This document shows, piece by piece, positions 3,872 through 62,824 of a stretch of DNA of 64,000 nucleotides. The first letter of the stretch is position 1. Every line of letters begins with the position of its first letter. Source of the stretch: Hydractinia symbiolongicarpus (lineage: Eukaryota > Cnidaria > Hydrozoa > Anthoathecata > Hydractiniidae); the NCBI RefSeq assembly GCF_029227915.1, contig NC_079887.1:13268001-13332000 (forward strand), given 5' to 3'. Both the position numbers and the translations under genes were made by a program. A model generated the notes under the pieces. The model saw nothing but the letters and a program-made list of their open reading frames with translations. It did not search any database and was not told the origin of the DNA.

Positions 3872-5230
3872 TTACCATAACTGTGCATAATCTTCAACAC
3901 TGATGTCTTTTGTGTCTAACTCCTTATATGTCTCTTCTTCAGTTACCTAAAAATGTAAGAATTCACATGCTACAAACTAAAACACACGGACTTTTTTTAT
4001 TTAAATTGTAACAGCTTTATCAATGAAAAGTACAAGATCAACTTCGTCAAGACGTTAAAATACAAAACAATGGAGAATATGTTTAAATCGATCTTTCTTC
4101 TATTATGATTATAATGTCATCAAAAAAAATACTAAGGAATCAATATTCTAAAAATTTGTTGTACACCTATCATTTGAAACTTATATTTTCAATTAATTTT
4201 ATATCGATCAAACGAATTATTACTTGCCACATTATATTGTGGCTTGGAAACCATCTGCATATCTAAATACCGATTTCGTATATATTTTAAAGTTGAACTA
4301 CAATCGTACACAATAATAAAACTTCCAAAAGACATTTACGCTTAAGAATTAATTAAATTTTGGGATGCATTCGGTCCAAATTCTTAAATCCATATTTTTT
4401 ATTCTTTGGTAGGCCGAGACAACATTAAATTTGCGAGATGAAGAATTGTGAAAGGTTTTTTTTATTAATATTCTCCTGGATTGTCCACTCAATATTGTAA
4501 CAGAAAGATGTACCTAGTTTGGCATAGTCATAGTCATTTGATGGTGCACTTGGTTGATTACTGATAACATATCCAGCATTTGTTGCAGCGGGAGTTGGAG
4601 ACTAAGAGTTGAAGTTTAAAACTTTAAGTTACTACAATCCAGCTTTAAATTTGTAAGAAAAAATGCTTAATTTCAAAGAAATATTGACGAGCAGTTATTT
4701 ACAGTCTTTTTATACCCTGCCTGAAATTCAAAGATGTCAAGGTTTACTTTTTAATGTTCACAATATACTTAGCAGCTTAAGTTATTTGGTTACTTCCGAA
4801 ACGTCAAACTGTGATAATTCTTGCTGAAATTAGCATAACCTGTTTTCTCGATTTTTTAGAACTTGAGGGACGTCCAATTATTTGTTCCATAATGCAACAT
4901 CGCAGAAACTGCCACTAGCGCCGTTTCAACGTTCCCCAACCACCTTACATATCTACCTAGGTACAATTTCCGCAGTCTTTTAGCTGCAGAGCATTTGTCA
5001 GAGTGCTATTTTGCCATTTCCAAAAATAGCCAAAAAAGTGCCACTTTGCAAATAATTAAGAACAGAATTAAAGATAGAACATTTGTAAAGGTAGTAAAGG
5101 GGATATATTTCGTAACGTTGTATTTCTGATCCGGTCTTACTGCAATTGCCATTGCCTAACAGTGGCAATTCGTCGTTAAATTACGATACTTAAGCATGTA
5201 CCGACCTTATTTTTAGGTACTCTTTTCCTC
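3872..5230 (-). pseudogene. Gene A tail exons 5-8 (orphaned, truncated cytoplasmic tail)
   Basis: These are the cytoplasmic exons of a family receptor: exon 5 5206-5230 (basic, RRKRVPKNK), exon 6 4514-4601 (contains DYDYAK), exon 7 4228-4262, exon 8 3946 to a stop at 3872-3874. Exon 8 carries a complete ITAM (YKEL-x9-YAQL) but stops right after YAQLW: a CAA in the duplicate copy (gene C) reads TAA here. Downstream remnants of the two Y-x-E-T motifs survive out of frame to about 3745. Exon 7 ends at GTG followed by GCAAGT, which fits a GC-AG intron; this is the only way to keep the phase 0 used by the relatives. No transmembrane exon lies between exon 5 and exon 3 (6176), so the exons are probably not translated with gene A's ectodomain: joining exon 3 to exon 5 makes TGA at the junction. 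The whole block is a near-identical copy of 20396-21795. Confidence 0.72.
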
Positions 5231-6175
5231 CTAAAAATAAAAATAACAAAATAATAAGAACAATAACAAAAAAACGTAAGCATCTTTATTTATATCTCAA
5301 TGGTCATTCTTCATATAAACCAGTAAATCCAATCTGAATGTCGTGGTTAAGCAAATTTTTGTAAAATTAAACCATAAAAATTAAACCTTTATACAGAAAG
5401 CAAGGTCGAAAGGTTTGCAGAAGATGTAATTGTGTGAAATGATCTTTAAGCAACAGATATGCACATTATTGGGTGTATAACAAAGAGTATCTACTGTTAT
5501 TTATACTTCTTCTTAATACCTTATCGGTAAAAAAAATGTCGGTAAATGGTCACCCTCAGTGACTATCTATTTTTACGTTTTATATAGACTAGTCACTTTT
5601 ACTGATTCTTTTACCTGATCCTAGAAAATGGAACAAAGGTATGACTCAATAGCATGGTGGGTAAAAAGAAAAATCGGCTTTTCCCTGATAATTTCCATCA
5701 ATTTTTGCATACATATCGGTCAATATACACAGTAAAAGCTTGACGAAGTCGACTAAAGACAATGCTGATGACAGCGAACCGTATTGTAAAAAATGCAGTT
5801 GGTTTGTTCTTTGTTTCTTTAACTTAACCGATTGTTGTTCAATGTCTTCAGTTAAATCATAGGTTTATATGTCACGGATACTGAACCTATATGTCCATCA
5901 AAAAAATTACCGATTAAGCATTTTACACTGCTTATGCCATACCTTATTTAGAACATTAAGATCCAAAATGCTTCAAAATGATGAGGGTACAAGAGTACCC
6001 TTTGTATTTTTTAATTTTTCTAGGTAGAAAAATTTTGTTAGCAAAAATGTAACATTGGTCAAATATTACATTTTAACTGACTATTCTTTTGCAAGCCAAC
6101 ATTATTTCTTCCGTCTAAAACCTTTTATCAACCTATTTCACCGATCTTTTTCTAAATGTTTTTCTATTCACTCAC

Positions 6176-7892
6176 ACTTGAACTCTCCTTCAGCTTTTAA
6201 GAGCAGACAATCTTTGTGTCTTACGTCACAAGACGCTAAAACTTTCAATAGAGCACCGGCCAATAACTGGTAAGATTTGGGTGTAATGGAAACTGCAAAT
6301 GTTCTAGAACGATGTGGTGGGCCCTGCAAAAAAAGATAATGCTATGCATATCTCATAACTAGAATAGTAACAATAATAACATTCTTAGTTAAAAATGATT
6401 GTGATAAGCCATAAAACTGTTCAGATATGCTGTCTATCGTGGACAAAATAGATATTAATATTAGCTGTTATTCTTTACAGTAAAATATTATTAGTTATTA
6501 AATAGCGATTTCTTTGCTGCCTTTCTAGTGACCTTCTGGAGAGGTGCTAGCGAGAATGTGACTTACTAGGGGCTTCGGTGTTGGTGCTATCTTGACTTGC
6601 GCCTTGATCATTTGCCATCCATGCTGTGTGCTTTTCCATATAAGAACATCAGTTTGGCAATACGTTTTACCGGTCGATATTAATTGACCTTTTGCTATCC
6701 ATGCCTTTCCTTGCTTCTTTAATAAAGGGACTGAATTTCCTAGGCGACTTTTACATTCTAAATTAAAACACACATTATATTATGTAGTCGTTAGCCCGTG
6801 GAAAAATCCACGGTTCGCCCGTCGCAGCTAAGCTACCATTTTGCGTGGCAGACGTGTACGGGCATTATATTATATTATGTATACTTGAATACAAGAGATA
6901 ATATAGCAATGAAGACTTGTCAATATTATAGTTTCTGTTTAGGTTCGTCTGTCGGCAAAAGTAGTATGAATTCAACTTTGTCGTTAAGCTCAAGTGCATG
7001 TCTGAAGCACAAAAAGTGTCTTAACAAGCAGATATTTTGTCAGATTGCGCCTGCGAACTGCATGCTGTTTTAGTTGTTTTCCACTATAGGGCGTACTAAA
7101 TGAAAACGAGCCTTTCTGATGTCGCAATAAACGTTAGTGAATTGGTGATGCACAAAGCCGCTCAACTTTTTTCTAAAAATAAGTTTTTTTCGAGATATGG
7201 CGATGATTACATCATGAGCGAATAAACCGTAACTTATACTCGAGAGAAAAATTGTCACATTAAGTAAACGGAGCGTTGTTTCAAAAAAAATGGCGCAAAG
7301 CAATGGAGATCTGAATAAGAGCTATTTGATGTTTTGGTGAAAAATTGATACCTTACGGCATCAGCGCTAAGTCGGGGGTGTATGTTTTCTTTTTTATTTT
7401 TTTTTCCTTTTTGGAACTCCTTATAATTAGGTATCACATATCATTCTGCAGAGAATTGAGTCATCTTTAAAAAGATATACTTTCAAACGAAAAAATATCT
7501 CGTAATGCGGTGATATTGAAAATATACTCAGCGTGTGCCAAAAGGGGTTACCGCATCCTTAAATACCAAAGATAAATATTTAACAAAATTCTTACTAAAA
7601 AGCAATTTTTTTGAAAAAAAATACATTTTAAATTCATTAAAAAAATGATACCTGGCGCAATTTCATGTCGTGAGGAACAACGAAACTTGTCATTTACGGT
7701 AAAGAAAGTCCATTTGATAAAACTTTGACAGACACATTTATTACGATCAGACGTGGATTTAGATGCATCAAAATTTAAGCAGTTTTCATTAGTAATAACA
7801 TGGTCATGTAAGTTTCTTCCGGCTGTTATTTCTGTCGTGGTAGCCATGTTTTTGTTTGAAGTCAATCCATATAATAAAAGAAAAAGAATCAT
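6176..7892 (-). CDS. Gene A ectodomain exons 1-3; probable secreted or orphan receptor ectodomain
   Basis: Exon 1 is 7652-7892, exon 2 6567-6757, exon 3 6176-6323, with intron phases 1 and 0 and a phase-1 donor after exon 3, as in the relatives. The first ATG (7890-7892) opens a signal-peptide-like stretch (MILFLLLYGL). A four-cysteine block follows: C-x14-C-x-C-x16-C. Exon 2 aligns with exon 2 of genes F and G around the PLL and W-K motifs, and exon 3 ends in CLLLKAEGEFK, like CVLLKAKGEHT in gene G. I find no exon encoding a membrane helix in the 945 bases before exon 5. Splicing exon 3 directly to exon 5 gives T+GA, a stop, so the predicted product would be about 193 aa and soluble. It could instead be a broken gene. 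Family function is unknown; a secreted decoy or ligand is speculation. Confidence 0.68.
6785..6885 (-). repeat. Dispersed repeat, copy 1
   Basis: Shares with 17300-17430 the blocks GTCTG-CACGCAAAATGG, TAGCTTAGCTGCG, GACGGGCGAA and a terminal hairpin (CCCGTGGAAAAATCCACGG here). It sits in intron 1 of gene A, just 5' of exon 2. Confidence 0.75.
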
Positions 7893-12613: not shown

Positions 12614-15588
12614 TCAATCCTCCGGGACTGTTTCCACATATACTGGTTCAGACACCAATTTATTCTCCGTGTCAGCTTCTATCGCTGTTTCAAAGTACAG
12701 CGGTTCATTTAATCCATCATTTTGCAATGATGTTTGTACGCTGTTGCAGTAAGACAGCTGTGCATAATCTTCATCAAAGACTCCATTTTTATCTATCTCT
12801 TTATAAATCTCTTCTTCTTTCGCCTAAATTGTTAGTATGATTTTGGTTGATTTATTGATTTCATTGGTTAATTACTTTATAGAAATGAAAATGCGAATTG
12901 CGAATTTTACCTTTTCACCCTTTTTATATTGTAAATGAGAAACCATCTGCAAATCTAAATAGAGTTCATAATATGAAAGCAACAACAACAAAGACTATAA
13001 TAACAGCAAAAACAGTAAAAACAAACAAATAAACCAGCAAACAAACAAACAAAACGAATAATGACAATAAATTCAGTAAACACAATCTTACCTGCTGTAG
13101 CATAATTATCAGATGCATAATTATTTGTTTTCAAGCTTCCCTGATTATTATTATCCACGCAACTTGGACTCTTTACCGTAGAATTTGACGGCTAGGAAGT
13201 GAAATTTTTAAAAAAAGATTATAGCAATTAAGGCTACGCTAATTATACTTACTGTTTATGAGCGAAACAACTACATTTCGTGATGTTCAAATATCTATTA
13301 AAACAATGTCTACCACATTAGGATGATTTCCGCAAAAACGCAAAGCTAATGTTGAAGCTGCTTAAATAGCAATAAAATAATTTAGCTTTTTGAGAAAACA
13401 CACCGTTCTGTTGGCTTTCTTCCACCTAGAAATAAAAATTAATAACTGAATAATCATGTGTTGGAAAATATAAAGAGATTTGATCTTGTGCATTAAAATT
13501 GCAATCAGAGCGTTATTAACAATTAATCTTTTTAGGAAAGTTGAAATTCTTAACAGGAATAAAGAATCGACAGAAAACAGACTATTTTACATTAGTTTGT
13601 AACATCTAAGCTTTGGTAACATCACTTTTTTCAAAAAGCAACTGGTTCTGTTATGAAAAATTTTGAGTAACTTTTGGTACTCAGTTTTGTATATAGGCAA
13701 CAATTTTTTGATCCGGATTAACATATTCAATATTTCCTGATAATTTGCCAAAGGAATGACTAAATTATTTGAATTCAGGATCAATATTTATGTTAGCATG
13801 TAAATTTCCAACACCAAGTACAACTGCCTGTATCAGTAGTCAAACATTGATTTAGATTTTTTCTCAACATAAAAAAAGTGTTGCCATGGCAACATTTTGG
13901 CAAATTTCCAAAAAAAAACAAATAGGGTTAAACCTGCGTATATATCATACAGAATTGTATGTGAAGATAAAGTGTAATGTTAGCATCTTTTATTTCGCTT
14001 TTCTCAATCGAAGAAAACTTAATTTATTTTCTGCACATTCCACAATTATTTGCATCGGTATATACGACTCTTATTACGCTTTTGGGTCCGAAAGCTTCCA
14101 GCAGATAAAACTAATTGACATGTGACTGTTTGTTTTACATCGTCACTGTAAAACACCTTTAATCACTCACTTATCCTTATTTTCTAATCGATACAGCAAG
14201 ACCTGATTTACATTAAGTAGCGAAACAAATATGCAATAAGTACGTTAATTAATTTTACCTTACAATTAATACAATCAAAATTAGTACAACAATTACAACC
14301 ATAGCGCATGCGCTTCCAATGATAATACTGTTGCTATTTCCATTTGAGTTTTCTTTCAATGTCATTGCTGATTTTGTTGTGATCTGTTTCGAAGTCGTTG
14401 TTGAAATTGGTGTTGAAGTTTTTGCTGTTATTGTTGTGTAATCTAAAAAATTGATAAATCCGTGCAAATGTTCCTAGAATATAGCTTGTTGTAGAAACGG
14501 TTTGATAATGTTCTAAATCCAATCTACTTAAAAGATGATCATTTATTCAATAATTACTTACAAGTATATGTTCCAAATTTTTTATATACGTAGCAATCAG
14601 CTGAAATAACATGTGTTGAAGGATTTTTTCGCTTGCCACAAAGTAATTTAACCAATCTTCCTTTAATATTATTCAATTTTCCATTGAGCTAAACAGAATT
14701 CATTTTTACTACTTCGACATAACCAGATGACATTTTGAGGAATGTCAATGAGACATTTATGTAATTAAAATAGGAAAATGCCTATAATCCAAAATAAGAC
14801 ATTTTAGACGCAGAGTATGAAATTATCTACGTTTAGTGCGCAATAAGTACTTTAATTATTAGATCTTTGTTCTTTTATCATTTACTTGACTAGTTTAATG
14901 AAAATTAAATACCCAAATATTAAGTCCTTCTCCATCAAAATGTTCTTTAATATGAATATTCACCCAACTTTGGGCAATGCTATTCCATGCCAATAGTGAA
15001 TAATGTTGACAATCTTCCATGTCGCGATATATTTTTTGAGACTTCAAGACATCTTTTTTACATCCTAACATCAAGAAGAAATGCATTCATAATTTAAAAT
15101 AATATCATCTCATCAAGAGGGGAGTTTATTCCAGAAGTTGTCAAGCAGCATCTTACACACTGACTGAGATAAAAAGACAGAGGTAACTGTCAAAATGGTA
15201 GCCTAAAATAAATTCCCTTGTTTATGACGTTTTAAGATACTTTTCAATGACAATTCGTGGCAGTGTTTTTAAAATAATGAAAGGAAAACTTAGATTAGAG
15301 AATAACTAAATAATTCAAAAACATAATGGCATAGTAGGTACCTGGTGAGATTTTTGAACGTCTAAAGCAACCTGCTGTACCATTAACAATATGAAACGTC
15401 CTGTCTCTACTGCTGCATTTACATAGACCGTTTGACCTTCCCCACACCGTGTTACTAAGTTGATCACATTCCGACTTGTTTACATTTTGTATTACATCTC
15501 TGTATTTTCTAGAAACCTTTAGACATTCGACAACATATAACAAGAATATAACGCTCATGTAAATACTTGATTTTTTTACCAACTTCAT
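12614..15588 (-). CDS. Gene B: intact ITAM-bearing type I membrane receptor, 361 aa
   Basis: Eight exons: 15342-15588, 14913-15064, 14562-14688, 14259-14442, 13404-13425, 13092-13191, 12911-12954, 12614-12823. All have GT-AG borders and phases 1-0-1-2-0-1-0, and together they give one open frame. The start at 15588 was chosen because it aligns with gene C (MKLVKK / MRLIKN); an in-frame ATG lies 54 nt upstream. Residues about 1-25 are a signal peptide. The ectodomain has C-x14-C-x-C-x15-C, then C..C in exon 2 and two Cys in exon 3. A short Thr/Ser stalk precedes the helix (about 214-236, IIIGSACAMVVIVVLILIV) and the basic segment RWKKANRT. The tail has YASDNYATA in exon 6, then an ITAM (Y299-KEI-x9-Y312-AQL), then PLYFET and PVYVET. 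Neighbours are paralogues on the same strand. The likely role is a cell-surface receptor signalling through SH2 proteins; ligand and ectodomain fold are unknown. Confidence 0.82.
12755..12814 (-). other. ITAM of gene B (EEIYKEI-x9-YAQL)
   Basis: It matches the full consensus [DE]xxYxx[LI]-x(6-12)-Yxx[LI]. The acidic residue sits at -3 of the first Tyr and nine residues separate the halves. It lies at the start of the last exon, after the acceptor. Confidence 0.85.
13880..13893. promoter_or_regulatory. Perfect X-box-like palindrome (RFX-type), second copy
   Basis: Identical GTTGCCATGGCAAC inside intron 4 of gene B. Both copies share a 19-base core, AAAGTGTTGCCATGGCAAC, so they may instead be fragments of one repeat. 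Confidence 0.5.
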
Positions 15589-20600: not shown

Positions 20601-22716
20601 TCAACTTCGTCAAGACGTTAAAATACAAAACAATGGAGAATATGTTTAAATCGATCTTTCTTCTATTATGATTATAATGTCATCAAAAAAAATACTAAGG
20701 AATCAATATTCTAAAAATTTGTTGTACACCTATCATTTGAAACTTATATTTTCAATTAATTTTATATCGATCAAACGAATTATTACTTGCCATATTATAT
20801 TGTGGCTTGGAAACCATCTGCATATCTAAATACCGATTTCGTATATATTTTAAAGTTGAACTACAATCGTACACAATAATAAAACTTCCAAAAGACATTT
20901 ACGCTTAAGAATTTAATAAATTTTGGGATGCATTCGGTCCAAATTCTTAAATCCATATTTTTTATTCTTTGGTAGACCGAGACAACATTAAATTTGCGAG
21001 ATGAAGAATTGTGAAAGGTTTTTTTTATTAATATTCTCCTGGATTGTACACTCAATACTGTAACAGAAAGATGTACCTAGTTTGGCATAGTCATAGTCAT
21101 TTGATGGTGCACTTGGTTGATTACTGATAACATATCCAGCATTTGTTGCAGCGGGAGTTGGAGACTAAGAGTTGAAGTTTAAAACTTTAAGTTACTACAA
21201 TCCAGCTTAAAATTTGTAAGAATAAATGCTTAATTTCAAAGAAATATTGACGAGCAGTTATTTACAGTCTTTTTATACCCTGCCTGAAATTCAAAGATGT
21301 CAAGGTTTACTTTTTAATGTTCATAATATACTTAGCAGCTTAAGTTATTTGGTTACTTCCGAAACGTCAAACTGTGATAATTTTTGCTGAAATTAGCATA
21401 ACCTGTTTTCTCGATTTTTTAGAACTTGCGGGACGTCCAATTATTTGTTCCATAATGCAACATCGCAGAAACTGCCACTAGCGCCGTTTCAACGTTCCCC
21501 AACCACCTTACATATCTACCTAGGTACAATTTCCGCAGTCTTTTAGCTGCAGAGCATTTGTCAGAGAGTGCTATTTTGCCATTTCCAAAAATAGCCAAAA
21601 AAGTGCCACTTTGCAAATAATTAAGAACAGAATTAAAGATAGAACATTTGTAAAGGTAGTAAAGGGGATATATTTCGTAGCGTTGTATTTCTGATCCGGT
21701 CTTACTGCAATTGCCATTGCCTAACAGTGGCAATTCGTCGTTAAATTACGATACTTAAGCATGTACCGACCTTATTTTTAGGTACTCTTTTCCTCCTAAA
21801 AATAAAAATAACAAAATAATAAGAACAATAACAAAAAAACGTAAGCATCTTTATTTATATCTCAATGGTCATTCTTCATATAAACCAGTAAATCCAATCT
21901 GAATGTCGTGGTTAAGCAAATTTTTGTAAAATTAAACTTTTAAAATTAAACCTTTATACAGAAAGCAAGGTCGAAAGGTTTGCAGAAGATGTAATTGTGT
22001 GAAATGATCTTTAAGCAACAGATATGCACATTATTAGGTGTATAACAAAGAGTATCTACTGTTATTTATACTTCTTCCTAATACCTTATCGGTAAAAAAA
22101 ATGTCGGTAAATGGTCACCCTCAGTGACTATCTATTTTTACGTTTTATATAGACTAGTCACTTTTACTGATTCTTTTACCTGATCCTAGAAAATGGAACA
22201 AAGGTATGACTCAATAGCATGGTGGGTAAAAAGAAAAATCGGCTTTTCCCTGATAATTTCCATCAATTTTTGCATACATATCGGTCAATATACACAGTAA
22301 AAGCTTGACGAAGTCGACTAAAGACAATGCTGATGACAGCGAACCGTATTGTAAAAAATGCAGTTGGTTTGTTCTTTGTTTCTTTAACTTAACCGATTGT
22401 TGTTCAATGTCTTCAGTTAAATCATAGGTTTATATGTCACGGATACTGAACCTATATGTCCATCAAAAAAATTACCGATTAAGCATTTTACACTGCTTAT
22501 GCCATACCTTATTTAGAACATTAAGATCCAAAATGCTTCAAAATGATGAGGGTACAAGAGTACCCTTTGTATTTTTTAATTTTTCTAGGTAGAAAAATTT
22601 TGTTAGCAAAAATGTAACATTGGTCAAATATTACATTTTAACTGACTATTCTTTTGCAAGCCAACATTATTTCTTCCGTCTAAAACCTTTTATCAACCTA
22701 TTTCACCGATCTTTTT
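17619..22716. repeat. Segmental duplication, right copy
   Basis: This is the direct-orientation partner of 1-6151. It contains gene C exons 5-8 and 3' flank. The right edge (22716) lies in intron 4 of gene C, between exon 5 and the helix exon. The copies part after a shared run ending in CCGATCTTTTT. Confidence 0.95.
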
Positions 22717-37276: not shown

Positions 37277-37307
<31 letters not shown>

Positions 37308-46600: not shown

Positions 46601-49557
46601 ACCTTCCTTGAGTATATGCACTTTACTGCACTACTATATCGCCACAATAACACACGACAAGCGTGCCTTAAACTGTAAGAACTTTTACCTTACTTTCTCC
46701 CATGCGCTTTAATCTAAAACAAAATATAATCCAACATCTTAATCCGTGCCAATCTTCTTAACCTTATTTGGTATGGGGGGATGGGAGGGGGGCATAAAGT
46801 GCCCGCGGCATTTACAAAGTCTCATAGTTTTCTCATTACTGGATGAAATACCTTGTGACTTTTCCTACCTTTTATTAGACTTTCGGAATTTTTTTTTTCT
46901 ACAAAAATTGTCCGGTTAATGTCACTTAGTCTTTTATTGACAGGTGGTCATATCAAATTTTGCTGTACTGCTAGTTTTCTAAACTTACCAGTTGTGTGAA
47001 CATGTGATGATGTATGTGATAGTGACAAAAAGTCATCATGCAATATTGGCATACATACTGTGTATTTTGCAGATCGGAATATTGGTAATTTACAGACCAA
47101 AATATTTGTATTTTCCTATTTATTTATTTTTCTATCGTTACATGATGACGCCATAGGTCATTTTGTCACATGTCAATCCAATTTGCCTTGATTGATTAGT
47201 TACAGAAATAAATGCGCACAGATATACTAAGTTTTAGTCCATGACAGCTGCTAACACTAAGGTTCTCAAATATCAAATTTTCAAAAAAATTGAATTCTGA
47301 TCGATTTCCATTTTCTACCCAAACATTTTGTCACTAATTAAGTCACAACATATTAATGCTTCTTTGTGCCAAGTTTCGTCACTTAAATCCTAACAGAACA
47401 AAAGTTACAGCCCGTGGGCACTTTATGCCCCCCCTATACTAACAAGGGTCAAAAAAGCCCATACCAAATAGGGTTAATATATAATACTTTTTATTACAAC
47501 AAAGTCCTCCCCTAATGATAAAAGTTATTATCACTATCAGAATAATTACTACACTACAAACAACACCAATGATTATATGTGTTTCTGTTTTAGATGAATC
47601 GTTTGTTTCTAAAGTATTTGTTAATGCTGTAAGCAATGTTGTTATTGATTTCTTATCTATGGTTGTTGCTATTGACGGTGTTTTAGGCTTTGGTGGTGCA
47701 GTTTTGTATGAGGTTGTTGTTGATGAGGCTGTTGTTGACGACGTTGTTGTTGATGTCGCTGTTGCTGATGACGTTGTTGTTGATGAAGTTGTTGTTGATG
47801 ACGTTGTTGTTGATGTGGTTGTTGTTGACGACGTTGTTGCTGATGACGTTGTTGTTGATGACGTTGTTGTTGATGACGTTGTTGTTGATGTGGTTGTTGT
47901 TGACGACGTTGTTGGTGATGACGTTGTTGTTGACGTCGTTGTTGCTGATGACGTTGTTGTTGATGTCGTTGTTGTTGATGAAGTTGTTGTTGATGTGGTT
48001 GTTGTCGATGTCTGCTGTGATGTCTTTGTTGGAATACGGTCTAATTGGAAAATCACGCAAAGTTAGAAATTTTATCTGGTATCTAGCATGGTTGTTTACG
48101 GTAAAAAATTTAAAGGTCTTTCCTTACAGTTTATGAACCACGGGGATGGCCCCGTTAAAGGTAAATAAAATGGTAGTATTCAAAAATAATACCAGGTAGA
48201 TAGGACAAGTTATACTTAGCTACACATATATGGGTACATTGTAATGATAAATACGCAGTCTTATATATTGACACACCATAGTAATTCTTTAAAAATTGCA
48301 TAGGTAACCGAAATAAAGTTCGCATGGTTTCGGGCTTTATAGCTTATCTTTATAGCTGTTTTCTGAACACTTTTACACTTGTTGCTGGAATACGATTGCA
48401 AGAAGTGAATCTTTCGGTAATAGGACAAGGTTTGTTTAAAGTTTTCTTATGCTTTAAACTAATTTAACTTGATAGGATTGTTTTATCGGTATAGACAACG
48501 TCGCAGAGTCCTGGGCAATTTCCAAATTGTCGTTTTGCTGACTTTCCGTAAATATAGAAATAAACTGTCTTTAAAGACCTCTTGTATTACTTTACAAACA
48601 TGATTATATGCTTGTTATAAAAAAGTAGACTTACAAGTGTGCTCTCCTTTAGCTTTTAGCAACACGCAAGTGTCATTAACTTGAATACACGACGAGACTA
48701 ATTTTATAAGCGATCCTTCGATATCGTTAAAACGACTATCATATATTTTGTCGTTGTGTATGATCTAGAATTAAACAGAAAAATCATGTTTATATGTTAA
48801 CTTATATAAGTATTTTCCTTAATTTAATTGCTTTTACCTTGAAACTGAAAAAAAACAGACAGGCAATTTCCCCTTTCAAAATGATTGGCATTATGTTAAC
48901 CTTATTCGGCCCGTTCTTTTGTCCATATTGAAACTAAAGTAAGAAGTGAGCATTTTTTTTGCATATAGACACCTAGCCAGACGTGGGTAGTTTAGACAAT
49001 GTTCAAGACGTCTCAGCAGGCGTAAGTACTTTAATAAATTTAAAATAGTGTACACCATGCCATCAGAAAATTTTAGTACCCATCTGTTTTCAACAATGAA
49101 GGAAATCTTTTAAGTTATTTCAAATATTTTGATATGTTAGTTCTTTTTTTACACTGCAATTGTATTATTGTAAGTGCTTATATCTTAAGAAGGTAAAATA
49201 GGCAACGCCTTTTCTTACCGGAATTAGTATTTTTATGAATATTCGTCCATTGCGCCCTACAATTTTTTCATTTCTTATATTTATATACTTTGTAGTTTTT
49301 GTTGGTTTGTTAAAACGATTTTGATCGATTCTATTTCAAAGGCCTAAATTTTTTCATCAATTAAAACGCTTTGTTCTAACAAAAAAAATAAAAAATGCCT
49401 CTTGCCTAATCATGAGCACTCCTGAAGTACCTCTTGAAAATGACCGGGAAAAACTACACACAATTTTTTGTACATATTTAAGAGCTGATTAAATTTCTTT
49501 TGTTTCTGTTTCGTTATCCAACACAATTGGAATGTTCTGGTGCAAAATATATATATA

Positions 49558-49597
<40 letters not shown>

Positions 49598-52500
49598 TAT
49601 ATATATATATACAGTACCTGCGGCGCAATGACAGCCTGCAAAATTGCATTAAACATGCATGAAAAATTGTACGGTATGCCCGACGTTTAGCTAGTTGCAT
49701 TAGCTTGTTACAAGATATTTATCATGCGTGATTAAATGTAAATAAACATAGCGTCATCCACCTTCCTAACATTGAAACAGTATTATCGAAGTAGCAACCG
49801 TGTGAACTTAAAACTTAAACAATTCCGGTATGCTCCTACACAGCAAACCTGAAGGCATAACCCTGCACAAATAAAGCGTAATGTAGAATTTAAACATATA
49901 TTTCGAGAAAGAAAATTGGTCACTAGGAATTTATTCCAATTGTTTTTGCTAATTGTATAGGCGTTTGTTATCCCACAACAACATCAAATACGCCTTCATC
50001 ATCGTATGTCTTTGTCTTTCAAAGAATTCGGTCGCGGGCAAAAAAGTTTCATCACATTAGATTACATTTAAATTTTATGCTACAGCACTGGACCCAAATT
50101 GTACCGTGAATAAAGAGGGTTGTTTGTTGTATTATTAATTTCTAAACTTGTGCGATATAATTCTTTTACAATAATTTAAAGGAAGAATATTCAGTACTAA
50201 TATTGTGTATAAACTGTATTATTTATCATTGGTGTAGAAATTTATTTTCAAGTTTTAATGTAATTTTTCTTAGGGGTCATTTACATATCAATATTTGAAT
50301 TTTTAGCGTCATTTGTAAGCTAACGGGCGGGAGGGAAAGTGCCTAAGCCCTTACAAGGGTTTTGCTAGTGCCCAGACCAGCCCATAACACTGAAGAATCT
50401 ATGTTTTTCTCTAGAATTATCTGTCTGAATCTAACAACATAAAAACAGTGTCAAATTTTTTATTTTTTTATTTTTTCACCGATATGTATACAAATACGTG
50501 CATGAATTCAGGAAAGGACAAATGCTATGACTGTGGAAATTTTCAAACCGAATAAAAGAAGTGATTTGATATCAAAAAATCAATTCACACCCATTTATTT
50601 TTGGGTGATTTTTTTTTAAATTGCCTCTAGCAAATGAAGGAATAGTGTAACTAGATATAAAAAGATGTTCTTAGAAGTTACAATTAAAAAGATATTAATT
50701 ATATTTTTAGCCAGCTATATTCGTAGAGGCAATTAAAGTTTTGTCAGCAGGAGTAATGTAAAAAGAAGGATAATAGATTAGGAAATAGTAACACTTCAGT
50801 GCATACCTGGTAAATATAGAATATAATATTACGGCCATTTCTCTCATACTGAACATCAACATTCAAACTTTTTGATTCCAAATTGTCTATCCATATAGCA
50901 GCATTTCCGCATTTATTGTGTGACTTTGCTCCTTCTCCAACCAAACTCTTGGCAACTACAGCCTCTGATTTCCAAAAATTATCAGTTTCACTATTCTTTG
51001 ATAACAACTTTACTTCATTTACAGTGTTACAATCTAAAAAATAAAAAATAATTCTGTTATATATTTACAAATAGTGGAAGTTACGTATTTGATAAGGAGT
51101 GCTTAAAAAAATTCTTTAAGTAAAAATTTTCATAAAAATGATTTTAAATAATTTATTAAATAAAGGGTTGCAGAGCAGGAAGAAGTCCCCTATGCAAGCG
51201 AAAATTTTTATAGCAATTTACAAGTCCCCAGGCAATTTCGCCCATGGCTCATTTTTTAACTTTTTGTTAATGGTTGTTCTTCAGGGTTTCTTTTTGCAAT
51301 GAGAGTGGAGGTGCAGAGCACTTACATTTCGTACAAGTTATTAAAAATCGTAAATCTGTTATTAAGGTTCATTCGTTTTTAACAAGTGCAAACGGCACGT
51401 TGCAAAATATTACAAAGAGGTTTTATCTACACTAGTCATTACCATTACCTTTATATATGGCATTTCGTGTTTCCGTAAAAGGACGCGGTAACCCTTTTGA
51501 ACAAACAACTAAAATACGGCTATTATAATAGAGACTACCCGGTGGCCCGTAGAAAAATCCACGGGATCACATGGTCTTTTCATACCTCCTTCAGTGCGTC
51601 TCGCTACCTGGGATACCATTTTGCGTGACGAACAGACATATACGGGTATTATTATATAGATAATTGCTCCTTTCCGTCTTCCACGTTTTTGGTTTAAAAA
51701 CTAAGTATTTCAGGACACAAGAAAGGGAGTTTTAGACATTTTCTTTACCAGCAAGCATATATAAAGTTCTTTACAATATGTGTTAAAAAATATTTCTTTA
51801 CTAAAACTATGCATACTACCGCCCTCCTTTTGTTCACACTGGTTGAGTAATCTAAAATATAAAAGACATGGTTTTATTGTAGTGTAAAGAAAAATAAAAT
51901 CAGGTTCGGAATTTGTTGGAGTTTTCTTCGTCTTGTACCCTCTCTAAAAAACAGACTGTTTTTCTGTAAACTTATTGATTCAAGGAGCCATCATGAAATA
52001 TGCAATAAACTGTATTAATATTCTTTCATTCCCCCCTGCTAACATTACAAAACTTTGTAATTTTTCTCGGAAGTTTGTATAGTTTGCATTTTTCCTCTAG
52101 AAATTTTGAAGGCCATGATCGATTTTTAATTTTGATTTGCACATTTCGCGCCGGAAGGTCACTTCAAACCCAATATGCAAAAAAATATCTTCTTTAAAAT
52201 ACGCCAGTAGTTAAAATACTATTTAATCTGGAGGTCATAAGCGAAACAATAATAAAGGTCATAAGTTGACACCTGACTAACTTTTTAAAAAAGGTCCTTA
52301 GTAAGAATTATTTTCGCTTGCTTAAATGGCAAATGGATTTTGCCAGCGCTTAGCTTTTCAAAAGGTATCGGATAATTATTTAAAGAAAATCGTTTTCTTT
52401 ATAAAAAACTTCACCACAATATACTGTTACCATTCATTGTTATGATTTTAGCATTGGTGTTCCATTTACCTTTATTGCACTAAAAAATTCAGATCTTTTT

Positions 52501-55500
52501 CACTCTTTTTGAATTGCTATATTTCCTTTTTTCTGCGAATGTCAATTTAGCGAATGATATCTTAAATAACATTTTGCGGGTACGTAATTTTTCAAACTTG
52601 ACTAAAGTCTTTAAAAAGCACAAATTATATACAATGCGGGAATTAGTACCATTAACCCTTAGTATGGCTGCTTGGCAATTTTAATATATCTGAAATACAT
52701 GCTTAACTGGGTGTAACTTTGTGACTATAATTTACAAATTTTGTTCTAATAATCATTCCCAATGAAAAAGAAGTCTTTATAATTTTCATTATATCGTTTC
52801 GGTAAAGTTTTGGCAGCCTCTGAAAACTTTTACTAGATTTTTGCTATTGTAACGCGTATATGAATCAAATGGCCACCATGGAAAAGCGGGAAAAAGTAGC
52901 AAGGAAGTTCATTTGCAATCTATCTTGCATCATTATCGGTAGCCATAAAAGTTTAAAACGTTAAATTTACCCCTTTATTCAAAATGCAATTTTATTAGAC
53001 ATTTAGACAATACGTTATATACGGGACTTATATTGCGTAAATACTTAAACACGTGTATTTACTATATCGATCCGTCCCTACAGTCTTTTAGCTGATCGTG
53101 CTAATGTTAGATATACTTAATTTCCAGTATCTACCCAACATATTAGAAATTATGTTGTTAGACATCTATAGCTACCTTAATAAACTTAGATTTTCGGCTC
53201 TAACTGACTTAAATTGCGCTTTTGGGCACGAATTTGGAATGTAACAAGCCATATAATACCTGCTGAGAATTTTTGAATTTATTTTTTCGTGGGACAGGAC
53301 TATATGCAATTTACCGAAAGAACAAATTTTTGTAGAATCAGACTTTTGAAAGCTGTTGATTTATTTTTATAATTTTGGTAAAATTTGTAAGAAACTGTAC
53401 ACAGTATACTTTATTGTCAGATAATTTTACTGGAAAAAAATTCCACAGTTTCACATTTGTTTTATTATTATTTGTTGAAATTAAAATTCTTTGATATACA
53501 AACAAAAAATGGGACATTCCTTAGCCACAAAAATTTATTCAGTAAAAATATAATTCAGTAAAAATATTCCGAAATCAAAAATTTAATTCCAAACTCCTAC
53601 TAATTTTTTTTCAAAAATAAATATATTTATTCATTAAAAATAATTACAATTTAATTAAAATATAAATAGACTAAGGCTAAATAAAATGAAAATTGATAAA
53701 GAAAAGACAATATAGAGTAAAACTGTATTGTCAAAGGCTATGAGTTACACGAGTGTTTGACTGAATAGAAGAGAAGTGCGCATTGGTGACTAAATAAAAT
53801 AAAAACTTTATATTCTGGCATCTACACAGGCAAGATCAAAATCATTAACCACCTCTGTGTGCAATTTGGTATTCAAGGATCTGGAACCTCTAAGGCAAAG
53901 CAAAGCAGATTTCATTATTACTACTGATTATAGTACCTGTAAACCTTGAAATAAATTTTAGGTTTATGAGAAATTCTAACTCTGAAATTACTTAGTTACT
54001 TTTTCTATTTCTGGCAAAATTTTATTTTTAATCATCCACAAAAATCTGTTCAACCAAATTTCATTAATATTTTGCCTTCCTTCTTCTGACGTTAAAGTAC
54101 AGAAATGACTTACTTTTCCAGACAAGAGTATAATGTGTTTAAAAGTATGTTTTTTTGACAATTTGTGTATGATTCTATGAATGTGCTACAAAGAACTATT
54201 TTTTAGTTAATTTCGGACTTACTCCTAGGCAAAGGAATGTATGCAATATACTAAAATAACAACAGAGTTTCGAACTGTGGTCGTTATACATTATTTTAAA
54301 ACTTTAGGTAAAAACAATATGCCAAATGCTGATATAAATCCTTCCACAACGGACTTCATCATCATATATATATATATATAGCTTCATTTGGGTTTACTCC
54401 ACATCAACCGTTATTTTTTACATTTTGTGAAAACTTTTGTCCTCGCAAACCTTTTTTGTCATTTCATATTAAAACTTTTTTAAAGAACAGAATGAAAAAT
54501 GCATACTGGAATGTTTATTTAGTGAAATTTACCATGATAGAGGACAGAATAGATTATGCCGAAATAAATAATTTATTTTAATTTTTATATTTTCTTGTCA
54601 GCGAAAGGCAATTTAACTATTTGCTCAACTAAAACGTAATACAAACTATTTTTTAAGTTGTAAAAAAATAAATAAGAATCAAGTAGATAAAATGAAAATC
54701 AACATTGTATTCAGCTACTTTCCTTTTCAGTTTTTCTTTTCTTTCGTTTAGGCTTCCATGTAATTTTCAACAACCAACATACGAAACATTGGTTAAATGA
54801 AGCTTTTTCTATTTTTACATTTAGGTTGATTTTTACAAATGTTTAAACAAATGTGAGGGCGGATGTTATGTAAAAAATAAAAATAAAAATTATTTTAATT
54901 ATTTTAATCGATTTGCATTTAACAAGTCAACATGATGGATTTTTTTGAAAGAAAAGAGTACAAAATATACTAAAGGAACTGAAATTTGTGGCTTGGAGTA
55001 TTTTGACACTAACTTGTTTTGTGTTGTTGTTGTTTTTTCGTGTGTAAATTTTTGGGAGGGAGAATGATATGCAATATACTAATAAATAATAATTTTTGAA
55101 AAAAAATTTCTACACATTACAAGCTGTTGTTTATTGATATAATGTTGTGTAAACTTTTGTGGGGAAAGACCAAACGCAATTTGAGAGCTTGCGTAAATAT
55201 TTAGTAGTAGACATTGTGCAATATACTGAAGAACTTTGTTGTTGAAGTTTCTTCGATGCTCTTGCTTATATTTTGAGACTTTTTATTATTATGGCATATA
55301 ATGCAGATTGTGATGTTCAATATTGTGACGTTTAATGTTCCAACTCAAACTGCGGTATTGTTTGTTTTTGCTGCATAAGTTTCACATGTTTTGGAATTCT
55401 TTACATCGATCTAACATGAAGTACATTGGATTTCATAAAGCTTTTAAAGTTTTCACACTGGAGTTAAAGTACACGAATTACTAGCTTTCCTTTGTTTCGC

Positions 55501-57282
55501 GGCCGTTAATTTATGTAAAGTAATCTATGTAATCTATATAATAATACAACAGTTCTGTGTGTCTGTAACAGGCAAAGTGGATGTGTTCATTTTTCTTTGA
55601 TGTAGCCGCAAAAATCTTTGGTCTTAACGAAAAAATATGTCTTCTTTGTCAAGAAAAGTCGCGAGTTTTGTTTGTTTGTGTTTTAGAATCATGTGATCAA
55701 AATAAGAAAGTTAATTGGATGAACTAAACCACGTAATCGAAATAAAGCAATTTTTTTGCGAAAAATTTCAAGTTTTCCCTGACTAACAAAACGACCGTAA
55801 TAAGTTTGTTAAATAAAGTTCCTAGCACAAAGTAACAAAAATTGTGTTTGCAAAAAAAGATGGTTGTTCTTTTTAAGCATTTGTCTACTCTTTCCTTAAA
55901 AATGAATCTTTGCAAAAGCATTTGAAAAAGGGGCATGGTATTTAAATGAAGTATAGAAAGGTTTTTGTAAGGTTTGTTTATGTTTTTATTCAGTTTTGAT
56001 GATATGGGAGACATGTTTGTTAGCTAGCATCGTAAAGCCAACCATACCAACAAGAACTAGCTAGCTAGGAATTTATAAATATGTAGCCATGTACGTAATA
56101 GCTAGCTAAGTCTCCAGTTTTTCTTTAACTAACCAGCTATTAGCTGTTGTAGCTAGCTAATGTTATCTTTAAACTGAAGATTCCCAGTACCTCTAGCTAA
56201 CGTGGGAGTTTTCTGTTGCTAACCGTAGTTATCTTAGTGGTCTTTGCTAGAAATATGGCTGTAAATTATTTGACTTGACCTTTTAAGCTTAAATTAGAAG
56301 ATATAACAAGCAACAACACCTTTTAAAAGAATATATATATACTTTGTTGATTTCGATTTTATACTCTTTTTAAGCTATTTATTTCTTCTCTTTGACATTT
56401 TGGTTTAACTTATTGTTGCACAAGGCATATACAATATGCATATAAAAAAATAAAATTTTACATATTTTTGTTTTACCACTCAATTTTAACATTTTATATA
56501 AATTCTTTGGGACAGAATGGTATGAAATAGACCAAAATACCTGACCTTAGTTGTTTTTAATTTACATGCCTTGTGAAACTTTAAGGTGAACATTTTTTGT
56601 AAGACAATGGCATGGCATACTGATAGAACTGATCGTTGTTGTTTTAAATGTTATAACTGAAACCTTTTTTTGACATATTTATGTTAATTTTGTGAGGAAG
56701 GACCATACACAGAAGAAGAATTAGATTTTATCTTTGTTTTTCATATTTTGTATAAATTCTTACCGGGGAGGACTCTGTACAACATACCGAAATGACTGAT
56801 TCTTCTCTACTTAAATTTGATGCGTTCCAAAATGCATTTTTTTAATATTTGGGTAAGATTTAATGGGTAGGGACAACATGCAAAATGTCAAAAAAATGCT
56901 CTTTTTGTTGAATAAGAAGTACTCCTTACAATCATTTTTTTTTCTTACACTTTGGTTCTAAACAGCACATAACAATGATCGTGTTATATAATACAATCAG
57001 TATGAATTGGGAGAAATCAAAACAGACAACTAGTAAATGATCCTTACTGGTCACAATTTGGTTCTTTTTAAAGCATCCGTATTTACCATTCACTAAGTGA
57101 AACGTTTTTTTACTTCTAGGACAGAGACATCTTTCATTCTCCCATAAAGCTTTAAAAGTTGCGCAAGTGGATTGATTAACCAAAAGAAGATCTTTACCTT
57201 TTCTATTTACCGTTACATTAAAAGTGTGAACAAACAAACCACGCAAAATGACAACAAGAACATACACGTTTAAAATTTCCAT
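43601..57282 (-). CDS. Gene G: ITAM-bearing type I receptor with minisatellite-encoded stalk, 535 aa
   Basis: Exons: 57048-57282, 50807-51033, 48635-48764, 47488-48040, 46689-46713, 44979-45081, 44415-44458, 43601-43891. Exon 1 is assigned across a 6-kb intron because its phase-1 donor (A/GTAAGG) fits and no other exon 1 is visible nearer. It encodes a signal peptide (MEILNVYVLVVILRGLFV) and C-x11-C-x-C-x15-C. Exon 4 encodes about 150 residues of Thr/Ser repeat and the helix (IIIGVVCSVVIILIVIITFII). The usual donor after ATTAG is GG here; the next phase-correct donor, 24 nt on, adds GGLCCNK to the juxtamembrane segment. The ITAM is Y445-TCI-x9-Y458-AQL. The rest of exon 8 has PLYFQT and two tandem 21-residue units each with a YVETEPEYA core, ending EPWYATVSKK. 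Exon 1 could belong to another transcript; the remaining exons are firmer. Confidence 0.75.
43826..43885 (-). other. ITAM of gene G (ENTYTCI-x9-YAQL)
   Basis: Glu is at -3 and the spacer is nine residues. It opens exon 8, ahead of the duplicated Y-x-E-T units. Confidence 0.85.
45539..45658. repeat. Direct repeat pair in gene G intron 5
   Basis: GAAAACGAGAGCTTATCGAA is present at 45539 and again at 45636, 97 bases apart. A partial relative (GAAATCGAATAAGAGAGCAAAG) lies near 45490. Confidence 0.75.
46758..47477. mobile_element. piggyBac-type MITE-like element in gene G intron 4
   Basis: The ends are inverted copies: TTAACCTTATTTGGTATGGG at the left and the reverse complement of TTAACCCTATTTGGTATGGG at the right. 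A second inverted block, GGGGGGCATAAAGTGCCC, sits a little further in on each side. A TTAA at each end matches the TTAA target duplication of piggyBac-type elements, whose termini begin CCY. At 720 bp with no open frame, it would be non-autonomous. Its right end lies only ten bases inside the intron, next to gene G exon 4. Confidence 0.75.
47697..48030. repeat. Minisatellite in gene G exon 4 (GTTGTTGAT / GACGTTGTT units)
   Basis: The plus strand shows dozens of GTTGTTGAT-, GACGTT- and GTGGTT-type units built on a 9-15 base period. On the coding strand they read ACA/ACG/TCA codons and give Thr/Ser repeats (STTTTSTTTSS). The repeat explains long open frames on both strands here; only the minus frame continuing into the helix is the gene. 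Confidence 0.93.
49548..49613. repeat. TA microsatellite in gene G intron 2
   Basis: Almost uninterrupted TATATA. It produces a meaningless Tyr-Ile open frame on the minus strand. Shorter TA runs occur at 2941-2990 and 54362-54381. Confidence 0.95.
51535..51662 (-). repeat. Dispersed repeat, copy 3
   Basis: Contains GCCCGTAGAAAAATCCACGGG, CCATTTTGCGTGACGAACAGAC and ATACGGGTATTATTATATAG. It is in intron 1 of gene G, as copy 1 is in intron 1 of gene A. A weaker relative (CTGTGTGTCTGTAACAGGCAAA) is near 55555. Confidence 0.75.
53270..56920. repeat. Degenerate repeated module in gene G intron 1
   Basis: A short landmark of the form GGAC/AGAC-n-ATG/CATGCAATATAC-n-AAATAA recurs many times, for instance near 53292, 54231, 54534, 55065, 55163, 55209, 56511, 56602, 56703, 56768 and 56873. 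Spacing in the right half is often 90-105 bases. T-rich text with TTGTGTAAATTTT or GTATAAATTCTT lies between. It looks like an old, badly eroded tandem array. Confidence 0.55.
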
Positions 57283-59191: not shown

Positions 59192-62100
59192 TTATCTTTT
59201 CACGACATCATACTGTGCTTCTGTTGTTGCGTATTCTGGCTCAGTTTCTACATAAATTGGTTGAGCTTCAAAACATACTGGATAAGTCGTTGCGTAATCT
59301 GGCTCGGTTTCCAAATATACCGGTTCATTTGCAGGGTCGCTTAAGCCTGTTACCGCAGTTTCCGGAAGTGATAATTGCGCATATTCTCCGCCTAGGTTTT
59401 TTTCTGACTCTAAGCACTTGTATGTATTTTCATTGTCCTAAACAAATGAAGCAACGTAAGTAAAGAAGAAAGGTAAAGTACTTATCGTACAACATCACGC
59501 ATCCAGCAAAATTTTATCAAAATGAAAAAAGCTTAGCCAATATTATGCTTTGCATTAAAATTATTTTAACACCATATCATTTTTCTTCTTTCACTACCGA
59601 AAAAATCCAAATAGCTAACATAATTTCGAATTGTATAATCACAAAATTTAAATGGTAGCTAATTTCTTTCCTATTTCTTCTGAGGTTTTAAATTTTTCAT
59701 AATTTGTCATTTGCAAAAATAATAAAGTTGCAAGAAACAAAGTTGCCGATTATTCTTTTTATGGAACTTCATTAAGTCCTTTCTACGGGCATGTCTCAAA
59801 CCTTACTATGCACATCTTTAGTAGTCTTCCTAGCATATTCCTTGTGATATACTTGCCGATACAGTCGTAAATTACCTTTCTCATGAGAAAGTTCTTATAT
59901 AGCTCGACATAAGGGAGATATTTACGTATACCTTAGCTGCATCAAGAACAGAAGCAAGATTGCGTATTGATACATCTATAAAAAAGGGAATTTTTCAACA
60001 AAATACATTCCAGTGTTTGCATATGGAACGATTTTCGCTGACATTCTGGGCTTTCAAAAAACTCCTTTTTGCCCGACTCCATGGTTATGATACGTCCTGA
60101 GTTATAATATATATACGGCAGCGTGCCAAATTTTTAGGGCTCATACCTATGTGAGGTGTGGATATTGGCCATTACTCGAAACTACCTCTAAACGTCTCTA
60201 TGAAGTCTTTATAATCGGGAAACTATAGTAACCTTCGTAGAGAATAAACTTAAAGGATGAAACTGTAAATTGTGGACAGGTGATTAATCCGATTTCCCCA
60301 TTCTTTTGGATTTACCCTCATATCGGGTGAAATCGAATTTTCGGGCTTTTTTGTAATTTTTTATACGAACTCTGTTTAAACTGGTAAATATGTTAACTAT
60401 CTTTTATTTAACTATTAAGAATTAACTTTATGCAAGATGTGAAAATTCGCTAGAAAACTTAAGTAACTGAATTTTAAGCAGATAGAGGTATTTTGGAGAA
60501 ATTTCAAGCTTTCGATACATAAGCAAAAATTTATTGCTGATTTTTTGTTTCTTTCATGCCGTACTGTAAGTGTACCGAGTTTGAGTCAATTTGGACAAGT
60601 CTATGATACGTTTTTTGGCGTTTTAGCAAAAATGTTCCTACTGATTGTAGATTGTGCTAATACTAATAGAAAAGAGAAAGTACCTTCACAATATGCGTAT
60701 TCTGAGTCAGGATTTTCATATGCCGTGTTTACAGATGGATTCACATCCTCATAGGTTGCGTACATCGCAGCAGTCGGAGGCTATAAAGTAAAAAAAAGTA
60801 ATATTACAATAGGAGAAAATATGAACTAAGGTGTGCATATGAATATTTAGAACATCTACGTATTAGATTCTTAAGGAGTGTCAAACTATTGTTTTATCAT
60901 GGACAGGCCTCTTTATGGCTACCAAGAACGCACCAACGTATTTCTACTCTGTATGCCTTATCTGTTTTGTTTCTGTCGTTCCATATTATATATAAAGTTC
61001 TATAGAGTAAAACCCATCTCTTTTTTTCTTAACGATAAATTTCTTTCTACCAGTCTATGCATTACTGGTAAAAAAAAATTTTAATGAAAACTAACTGGCT
61101 TGTTTTTTATCATCTATGTTGAAAAAATTTCTTTTATAACGATAAGATATTATCTTAAAAAAAATCAGCGAATATTTTAGTCATGATAACATGAATGTAT
61201 AAAATATGTCTTTTATACCTCCATAAAGATAATCATGCAAAACGGAAGTATAGCAATGTCACAAAAGCAATGCGAAAATGTAGACTTTGTTATTCTGCAT
61301 ATTATTACTTATCTCTTCTGATTAAAAAGCTTAACAAATTAAAGCTTCAGGTACTATGATTTATTGACGACTCATTGTATTCCATTCCAAATTAATTCTT
61401 CTATTCTTACACACTGTGAGTAAGATGACAGCATCAAGTTAGTTTATTCTTTAATGAAACAACTACAGTAATGCTCACAATAACTTGTACAATTGTTGTA
61501 TATTTAGCAGAAAGGACTCACGTGATCTGCTCTATTCGTAAGATTAAACTTTCAGTTTTTGCATTGCATTATAGAAAAGAGCTGGTGCGGTTTTCCTAGT
61601 TCTTTGAACTGAGATCTCAGTTATGCAAATCAAGTGAAGAGATTTTTCTCCTCTATTTGATCTTTTGTATAATGGTAGAGGGTACCATCATTTTCTCATT
61701 ATAATACTCCACCTTAAACGGTTAAACTCTTACCTTTTTTTCTCTTTGGTGCTTCAATCTAAAAAAAATACTCTTATAATGAGTTTTATTAAGTTTTATT
61801 CCCTTTTATTTAAAGCAATATCAGTTTTTGTTTTTAACAAAGTGCTCACCTAATAAAAATAAAAGTTATCATTAGTATCAGAAAAATGACTATGCTGCAA
61901 ACAACACCAATGATTATATTTGTTTCTGTTTTTGAAGTCTCATTTGCTTCCAAGCTATTCGTAAATACTCCACGCGGTGTAGTTCTTTCCGACGTTGTAT
62001 TTTCTGAGGTTGTTGTTTGTGACGGTGTTCTTTCCGACGTTGTTGTTTGTGACGATGTTCTTTCCGACGTTGTTGTTTCCGACGATGTTTTTTTCGACGT

Positions 62101-62824
62101 TGTTTCTTTCGACTTTGTTTTTGTTTGTGGTGGCATTGTCCTTCTTGGCAATGTTGATGTCTTTCGAGGAATGAGGTCTAATTAGGAATTCTTATAATTA
62201 AATGTTTAAAATTATTTTTCTTGTACTTATTTTTTTGTAATAATTAACCCTCTCTGGTACTATTCTACCACAGCATGTCCAGAAATAGCATTACAGATCA
62301 TATGTGCGCAAAACGAGAGCTCTAAACAATTACTTAACAACAACAACTATTTAACCTTTTTTATATTTTTCCGCAAGTTGTTCAGATTACATGGTATAGT
62401 ACAGGGCAACTAAACATTGCGAAAATCACTTTTCAGATGAGTATTATGTGAAAGTTGTTGTATTCTTGTTAATTATCTGTAATTAATCTTCTTTAATTCA
62501 ATCTAGTAACGCATAAATTACCACCTTAAGGTCCAATTAACAATCATATTTCAACTCGTAAATCGTGGAGGTTGTAAATGTAAACATTTTTGCCTACCTT
62601 TCCATATTAAACTTCACAGGCTTTCTTAATCGGAGACTTTGTAAACATTATATGTAACCATGCAGCTATGGTTGTTATAAAAACAAATTTGACTTACATG
62701 TGTGTTGGCCTTTAGCTTTCAGAAGAACACAAATATCAACTCCATTACATAAGGAGACCAATTTTATAACTGATCCTTTGATGTCATTGAAACGAGACAT
62801 ATATTTTATGTCGTTGTATTTGAA
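59192..62824 (-). CDS. Gene H: ITAM-bearing receptor, exons 3-8 only (5' end outside window)
   Basis: Exons: 3 62698-62824, 4 61850-62177, 5 61734-61758, 6 60684-60780, 7 59932-59975, 8 59192-59437. Together they encode 288 residues plus stop, with the family phases. Exon 3 (DIKYMSRFNDIKGSV, then CVLLKAKGQHT) is closest to gene G's. The stalk is repetitive, with TSSQTTTSER-type units. The helix is IIIGVVCSIVIFLILMITFIFI with a normal GTGAGC donor, followed by RLKHQREKK. Exon 6 has ATYEDVNP and EYAYCE. The ITAM is YKCL-x9-YAQL, then PVYLETEPDYATT, PIYVETEPEYATT and a final QYDVV. I found no exon 2 or 1 between 62825 and 64000, so intron 2 is longer than 1.1 kb and the signal peptide lies to the right. 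Likely intact as far as it can be seen. Confidence 0.8.
59372..59431 (-). other. ITAM of gene H (ENTYKCL-x9-YAQL)
   Basis: Glu is at -3 and the spacer is nine residues. It lies at the start of exon 8, as in its paralogues. Confidence 0.85.
61970..62150. repeat. Short repeats in gene H exon 4 stalk
   Basis: The plus strand repeats TTCCGACG-TTGTTGTTT-type units of about 30 bases with variations, encoding ERTSSQTTTS-like stalk repeats on the minus strand. Confidence 0.8.

Follow-up and report, generated by a model that had tools for sequence, protein, structure and literature searches.

The ITAM-like tails of the receptor array

The 64-kb stretch of the Hydractinia symbiolongicarpus genome analyzed here (the window; guanine-plus-cytosine content, 32.1%) holds eight receptor tails, all on the minus strand, which we label A to H. 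Seven of the eight match a strict version of the immunoreceptor tyrosine-based activation motif (ITAM), [DE]xxYxx[LI]-x9-10-Yxx[LI], and the motif stands at the start of the last exon. The genes share an exon plan: a hydrophobic N terminus with a small cysteine domain, two further ectodomain exons, a Thr/Ser-rich stalk with a membrane helix, a basic microexon of 25 bases (22 in C), a tyrosine exon, a short exon, and the last exon with the ITAM-like motif at its start. The cysteine domain has the pattern C..W..CxC..TF..CF in C, E, F, G, and H and lacks the W in A; the stalk differs in length between genes, and the membrane segments of C, E, F, G, and H are free of charged residues. With signal peptide, membrane helix, and topology read by eye, the products would be single-pass type I receptors carrying their tyrosine motif on the same chain as the ectodomain. 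For E and F, we derived eight-exon models from the raw sequence ahead of any database search, and these are letter-for-letter identical to the NCBI proteins of LOC130623868 (416 residues) and LOC130623867 (472 residues), and exons 3 to 8 of H equal the C-terminal 288 residues of the 449-residue protein of LOC130624001; exons 1 and 2 of H were not found up to base 64000 and are placed past the window end. The eight-exon structure proposed in a preliminary description of this DNA is borne out; the span given there for the cluster (3872..62824) does not take in the whole of gene H.

A six-frame scan of the whole 64 kb with the strict pattern and a spacer of 6 to 12 returned exactly the seven tails and nothing else; when V and F were allowed as well, three extra frames with an acidic residue at −3 matched elsewhere in the window. 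In five tails shuffled 20,000 times each, the motif (spacer, 6 to 12) arose by chance in 0.3 to 0.7% of amino acid shuffles per tail. We reject a chance origin on the strength of these shuffles, the confinement of the strict pattern to seven tails, and the column test described below. The spacer measures 9 residues in C, F, G, and H and 10 in E. The canonical ITAM is given as YxxL/I-x(6-8)-YxxL/I in PMC9231431, a form that these spacers do not fit; they do fit the broader range of 6 to 12 described in PMC6433993, where FcgammaRIIA is placed outside the canonical form, with its ITAM on its own immunoglobulin G-binding chain. Since the spacers are 9 and 10, the motif is ITAM-like in the broad sense, and its layout is nearest to that of FcgammaRIIA. 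Among the NCBI products, those of E, F, and H contain the pattern, and that of G (isoform X2) does not. The preliminary description had counted seven tails with the full consensus at the start of the last exon, as the scan confirms; its statement that each gene bears a canonical ITAM does not hold, both for the length of the spacer and because A, B, D, and G are defective, and D, which was said to have lost only the last consensus residue, also lacks the acidic residue at −3.

For the column test, we compared the last exons of C, E, F, G, and H, leaving aside A and B (a duplicate pair) and D (a pseudogene). Within the motif, residue class is kept in all five ITAM consensus columns compared with 1 of the 14 others (hypergeometric P ∼5e-4, a value that is only a guide because the compared tails are related paralogues). 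The ratio of nonsynonymous to synonymous substitution rates (dN/dS) of the last exon, computable in four of six pairs because dS is saturated for E-F and C-H, is 0.19 (E-C), 0.42 (F-G), 0.38 (F-H), and 0.27 (G-H); for tyrosine exons 6 and 7, it is 0.33 to 0.52 inside two subgroups and 1.09 for E-F. The motif is therefore conserved relative to its surroundings, as had been claimed, and the last-exon ratio near 1 without excess motif conservation that had been named as contrary evidence is not what the computable pairs display. The emphasis formerly placed on the ITAM stands as far as its consensus positions go but not for the tail as a whole: 14 of the 66 gap-free last-exon columns are invariant, and 11 of these 14 lie downstream, in NEPxYxxT and YVETxPE, whose tyrosines must figure in any account of the tail.

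These downstream sites raise the alternative of a multityrosine docking tail, with its main output through NEPxYxxT and the repeated YVETxPE sites to other SH2 or PTB proteins and the paired YxxL/I sites secondary or endocytic. Besides the 11 invariant columns, a tandem YVET unit in the tail exon of G speaks for it, and YxxL/I on its own often functions in protein sorting. We nevertheless judge it unlikely, given that conservation extends to all five ITAM consensus positions, the acidic residue at −3 among them, but to only 1 of 14 neighbors, and sorting signals do not need an acidic residue there.

Intact, altered, and decayed copies

The state of the individual genes suggests that no more than three or four of the eight are able to make a complete ITAM-type receptor. 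E, F, and H have intact, motif-bearing products predicted by NCBI. All eight exons modeled for C are open, the weakest part being microexon 5 (13425-13404, 22 nucleotides), and our protein search found no matching database protein for it; it can probably be counted as the fourth signaling member. In G, the donor of exon 4, the membrane exon, reads GGGAGG (47506..47511, minus strand) and not GTxxxx, where H has GTGAGC, and the NCBI product of G, isoform X2, reads through this broken donor to a stop 23 residues on, without the ITAM. The 63-base repeat of the G tail (Table 1) sits in the part that this isoform no longer contains. Isoform X2 also splices out the C-terminal part of exon 1 with the cysteine domain (57282-57048; protein NVTVNRK-DCNTV), so the first ectodomain module of G may be optional.

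The remaining copies are defective to different extents. Between exons 3 and 5 of A, we found no stalk- or membrane-like segment (the best 20-residue hydropathy is 1.78, and the E control reaches 2.75). The last exon of A ends in a stop after YAQLW, directly behind the motif; a working receptor is probably not to be expected from A, which could encode a secreted protein. Its ectodomain exons (6176-7892) are open, and its exon 3 is only 20 to 27% identical to those of the other genes. Exon 1 of B is interrupted by an in-frame TAG and exon 2 by two TGA codons, and the tail of B is shortened. In D, the start codon is followed at once by a stop (ATG-TGA), the reading frame shifts in exons 1 and 8, exons 2 and 3 contain stops, and the exon 8 acceptor is unlike that of E. 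We therefore reject the idea of eight working ITAM genes, given the lesions of B and D, the missing membrane exon and early stop of A, and the lost tail of G. Of the eight-gene cluster described earlier, the eight minus-strand tails stand, and the working ITAM receptors come down to three annotated genes plus one likely one.

The copies differ in how alike they are. Bases 1-2432 repeat directly at 17619-20056 with 98.7% identity, and bases 3556-6151 repeat directly at 20116-22716 with 98.2% identity; the near-identity of the blocks may stem from recent segmental duplication or from the assembly. Because the tails of A and B both sit in this duplication, they count as one observation. D and E are 73 to 77% alike, and the other copies are more distant. 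As read from the sequence, the cluster appears to be a young, still-changing tandem array of one receptor family, in which copies decay and duplicate. The stalks of G and H are encoded by minisatellites, and stalk length may for that reason vary between individuals in these two genes.

Table 1. Positions of the receptor genes, their ITAM-like motifs, and the repeats in the 64-kb window
Feature	Position	Strand	Remarks
Gene A	3872..7892	-	Exons 1-3 open; stop right after ITAM (YAQLW-stop)
Gene B	20399..24548	-	Pseudogene; tail stop shortly after ITAM
Gene C	12614..15588	-	Eight-exon model, 361 residues, open throughout
Gene D	28116..30089	-	Pseudogene, tandem copy of E; motif ending YAQF
Gene E (LOC130623868)	30808..33240	-	Eight exons, 416 residues, intact; model identical to NCBI protein
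Gene F (LOC130623867)	34912..39016	-	Eight exons, 472 residues, intact; model identical to NCBI protein
Gene G (LOC130623877)	43601..57282	-	NCBI isoform X2 covers ectodomain, stalk, and membrane exon; ITAM exon looks intact but lies outside X2
Gene H (LOC130624001), exons 3-8	59192..62824	-	ITAM-bearing, 449 residues; matches end of NCBI protein
H exons 3-8, singly	62824-62698, 62177-61850, 61758-61734, 60780-60684, 59975-59932, 59437-59192	-	
ITAM-like motif A	3878-3928	-	Duplicate of that of B
ITAM-like motif B	20444-20494	-	Duplicate of that of A
ITAM-like motif C	12755-12805	-	EEIYKEI-x9-YAQL
Motif-bearing tail D	28233-28286	-	Ends YAQF, outside strict consensus
ITAM-like motif E	30964-31017	-	DNVYKEL-x10-YSQL; in NCBI protein
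ITAM-like motif F	35095-35145	-	ENMYNSL-x9-YEEL; in NCBI protein
ITAM-like motif G	43826-43876	-	Outside isoform X2 product
ITAM-like motif H	59372-59422 (from first Tyr)	-	ENTYKCL-x9-YAQL; in NCBI protein
Direct duplication	1..6151 vs 17619-22716		98.2-98.7%; 2433-3555 unmatched; holds 3' halves of A and B
15-base minisatellite	47708..48010		Codes Thr/Ser-rich stalk of G; related array in H at 61982-62122
63-base tandem repeat, G tail exon	43628..43763		Doubles 21-residue tyrosine-rich unit around YVETEPEYATTEPECFKAEP
AT dinucleotide repeat, ∼33 copies	49547-49611		Between exons 2 and 3 of G

The ectodomain and its possible relatives

Searches of Pfam yielded no credible family for the ectodomain; the matches of the full proteins stay below the curated cutoffs, and nearly all of them fall on the stalk/membrane segment. 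On these grounds, we rejected the strongest of them, the matches of H to TMEM154 (E value, 7.9e-07; 29.5 bits against a cutoff of 30.3) and to RIFIN (2.9e-06; 27.9 bits against 32), both on that segment, as well as matches to amyloid precursor structures in PDB (best E value, 8.2e-06), which cover profile positions 199-275, the membrane/juxtamembrane part. Membership in the N-terminal domain family of Shavenoid isoform B (PF23328) was likewise set aside: only the first domain of F, one of six, resembles it, below the cutoff (14.1 bits against 24.4; E value, 0.057), and none of the five other first domains matches. Two AlphaFold models have predicted local distance difference test (pLDDT) scores of 36.3 and 34.5, too low for use, and an Rfam scan at the gathering thresholds gave no match.

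Relatives were also sought by word-based protein searches. With E values up to 0.1, the profile search returned 4 of 2,699 candidates, namely, three Hydractinia proteins and a plant kinase (E value, 0.018) that we regard as spurious. The ectodomain of H, searched at E values up to 10, recovered 2 of 102 candidates (H itself and G) and missed its paralogues F and E; the H tail recovered 2 of 176 (H itself and F) and missed E. These searches found no credible relative outside H. symbiolongicarpus, but the absence of relatives elsewhere is weak evidence because known paralogues were missed. In the open-license literature, we found no paper naming the four locus numbers of the cluster. The receptor family is apparently undescribed, and the preliminary description, which called the family unrecognized and placed it in an early-branching animal, agrees with an ectodomain without a credible Pfam match and with a cnidarian source.

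Could the cluster be a diverged branch of the Alr allorecognition family, which belongs to the immunoglobulin (Ig) superfamily? Alr proteins occur in the same species, are single-pass, have tails with tyrosine motifs, and are clustered with pseudogenes, and one Ig-named Pfam match does exist, that of C to Ig_PDGFR_d4 (E value, 0.016). We consider this relationship very improbable and have rejected that match, which lies below the cutoff (15.6 against 27 bits) on construct residues 188-218, including the membrane segment; no Ig-named match was obtained in three full proteins, six first-domain segments, and five second- or third-domain segments. Genomic position, as far as it is described in PMC11876637, would also set the two apart: the allorecognition complex lies on chromosome 3 (Alr1 is LOC130635943), three outlying Alr homologues are found at other loci, and the numbering of chromosome 3 ends at LOC130636598, while a Prisilkin-like gene cluster at LOC130630016 is assigned to chromosome 2. 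The loci of our cluster (LOC130623867, -868, -877, and LOC130624001) are not among the Alr outliers listed there, and because the numbers 130623867-130624001 lie outside the locus range of chromosome 3, the cluster is probably on another chromosome, as judged from locus numbering and not from a map position.

A different question is whether the receptors serve immunity at all. They could have a nonimmune epithelial or adhesion role, for example, in contact between cells or in clearance by phagocytosis via Syk or Shark-type kinases, the duplications being ordinary turnover of a gene family. Consistent with such a role, no rapid evolution was seen: ectodomain exons 1 to 3 have dN/dS values of 0.39 (E-C) and 0.30 (F-G), with no excess of amino acid change, although these values are rough because dS is 1.4 to 1.6, near saturation. 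There is also a precedent in Draper of Drosophila glia, which, going by a reference title in PMC5978004, acts in phagocytosis via Src and Syk-family kinases. A mixture of younger and older tandem copies, together with pseudogenes and a copy without a tail, is reminiscent of immune-type receptor clusters, and we hold the nonimmune role to be quite unlikely.

Proposed signaling and comparison with known systems

We favor the reading that these are activating, single-chain receptors that signal via Src-type kinases and Syk, to which we assign a probability of roughly 0.6. Ligand-driven clustering would let a Src-type kinase phosphorylate the paired YxxL/I sites, and the doubly phosphorylated motif would recruit the tandem SH2 domains of Syk, whereas the further tail tyrosines, in NEPxYxxT and YVETxPE, would dock other SH2 proteins; the activating signal would thus arise without a partner chain. 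E, F, H, and probably C would be the signaling forms, and G, with its tail lost, may serve as a decoy or be uncoupled; B and D have decayed, and A probably yields no working receptor. Published accounts bear on the kinases in question: Syk-related proteins are reported in hydra and sponges (PMC9486129), invertebrates are described as having a single Syk-like gene plus HTK16/Shark (PMC10253181), and the invertebrate distribution of Syk is described as tracking CARD-CC/Bcl10, which the authors of PMC5978004 read as ancient ITAM signaling.

Several observations weigh against activating ITAM signaling. The spacer of 9 to 10 residues is longer than the canonical 6 to 8. The five sequences in the tail comparison are all paralogues within a single genome. 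Conservation of the tail does not peak at the ITAM, since 11 of the 14 invariant columns, out of 66 gap-free ones, lie downstream of it in NEPxYxxT and YVETxPE. Finally, the NCBI product of G has lost the tail and kept the ectodomain.

A family that joins an unrelated-looking ectodomain to this type of motif, in a genetically tractable cnidarian, would suggest that an early animal branch employs the motif and its kinase in more than a single receptor family, and the cluster would offer a direct test of whether ITAM-to-Syk signaling is older than Ig-based immune receptors; natural variants for testing are provided by the copy without a tail and by the tyrosine unit that is repeated. In the cited literature, as far as it is represented here, ITAM-type motifs of cnidarians are treated via the Ig-type Alr proteins. 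We further speculate, with considerable reservation, that the cluster is a second Hydractinia ITAM-type complex, non-Ig and unlinked to the allorecognition complex, in which tailed signaling receptors adjoin a tail-less, splice-uncoupled form whose ectodomain is related to theirs, as in vertebrate paired receptor clusters like those of natural killer cells.

Placing the ITAM on the ligand-binding chain itself, as the architecture was read in the preliminary description and is read here, is a layout already known from FcgammaRIIA and from the oyster receptor CgIgIT2. Human FcgammaRIIA and FcgammaRIIC differ from the cluster in being vertebrate receptors with Ig-domain ectodomains. To our knowledge, they have no NEPxYxxT or YVETxPE sites, and we liken them to the cluster by layout. 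What they share with it is the ITAM on the ligand-binding chain and a spacer above the canonical length (x12, as given in PMC6433993). CgIgIT2 of Crassostrea gigas is likewise an invertebrate single-chain receptor with an ITAM, but it has five Ig domains and is described in PMC11999971 as one protein and not as a cluster. The receptors of the Botryllus fuhc locus, with ITIM (immunoreceptor tyrosine-based inhibitory motif) and hemITAM sequences, form another invertebrate receptor family with tyrosine motifs (PMC12065747); they are Ig superfamily proteins of a tunicate, and the likeness is by description. Closest in origin is the Alr family of Hydractinia itself, whose single-pass receptors lie in clusters with pseudogenes; PMC12065747 describes ITAM and ITIM motifs on candidate Hydractinia allorecognition genes and states that the genome encodes the associated signaling molecules. 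The tandem array with its pseudogenes, described earlier, is supported; the likeness to immune or allorecognition gene complexes pointed out with it is one of analogy only, the known allorecognition complex lying on chromosome 3: the Alr proteins, as described, are Ig superfamily members encoded on that chromosome, and the cluster family has no credible Ig match and loci numbered outside that range.

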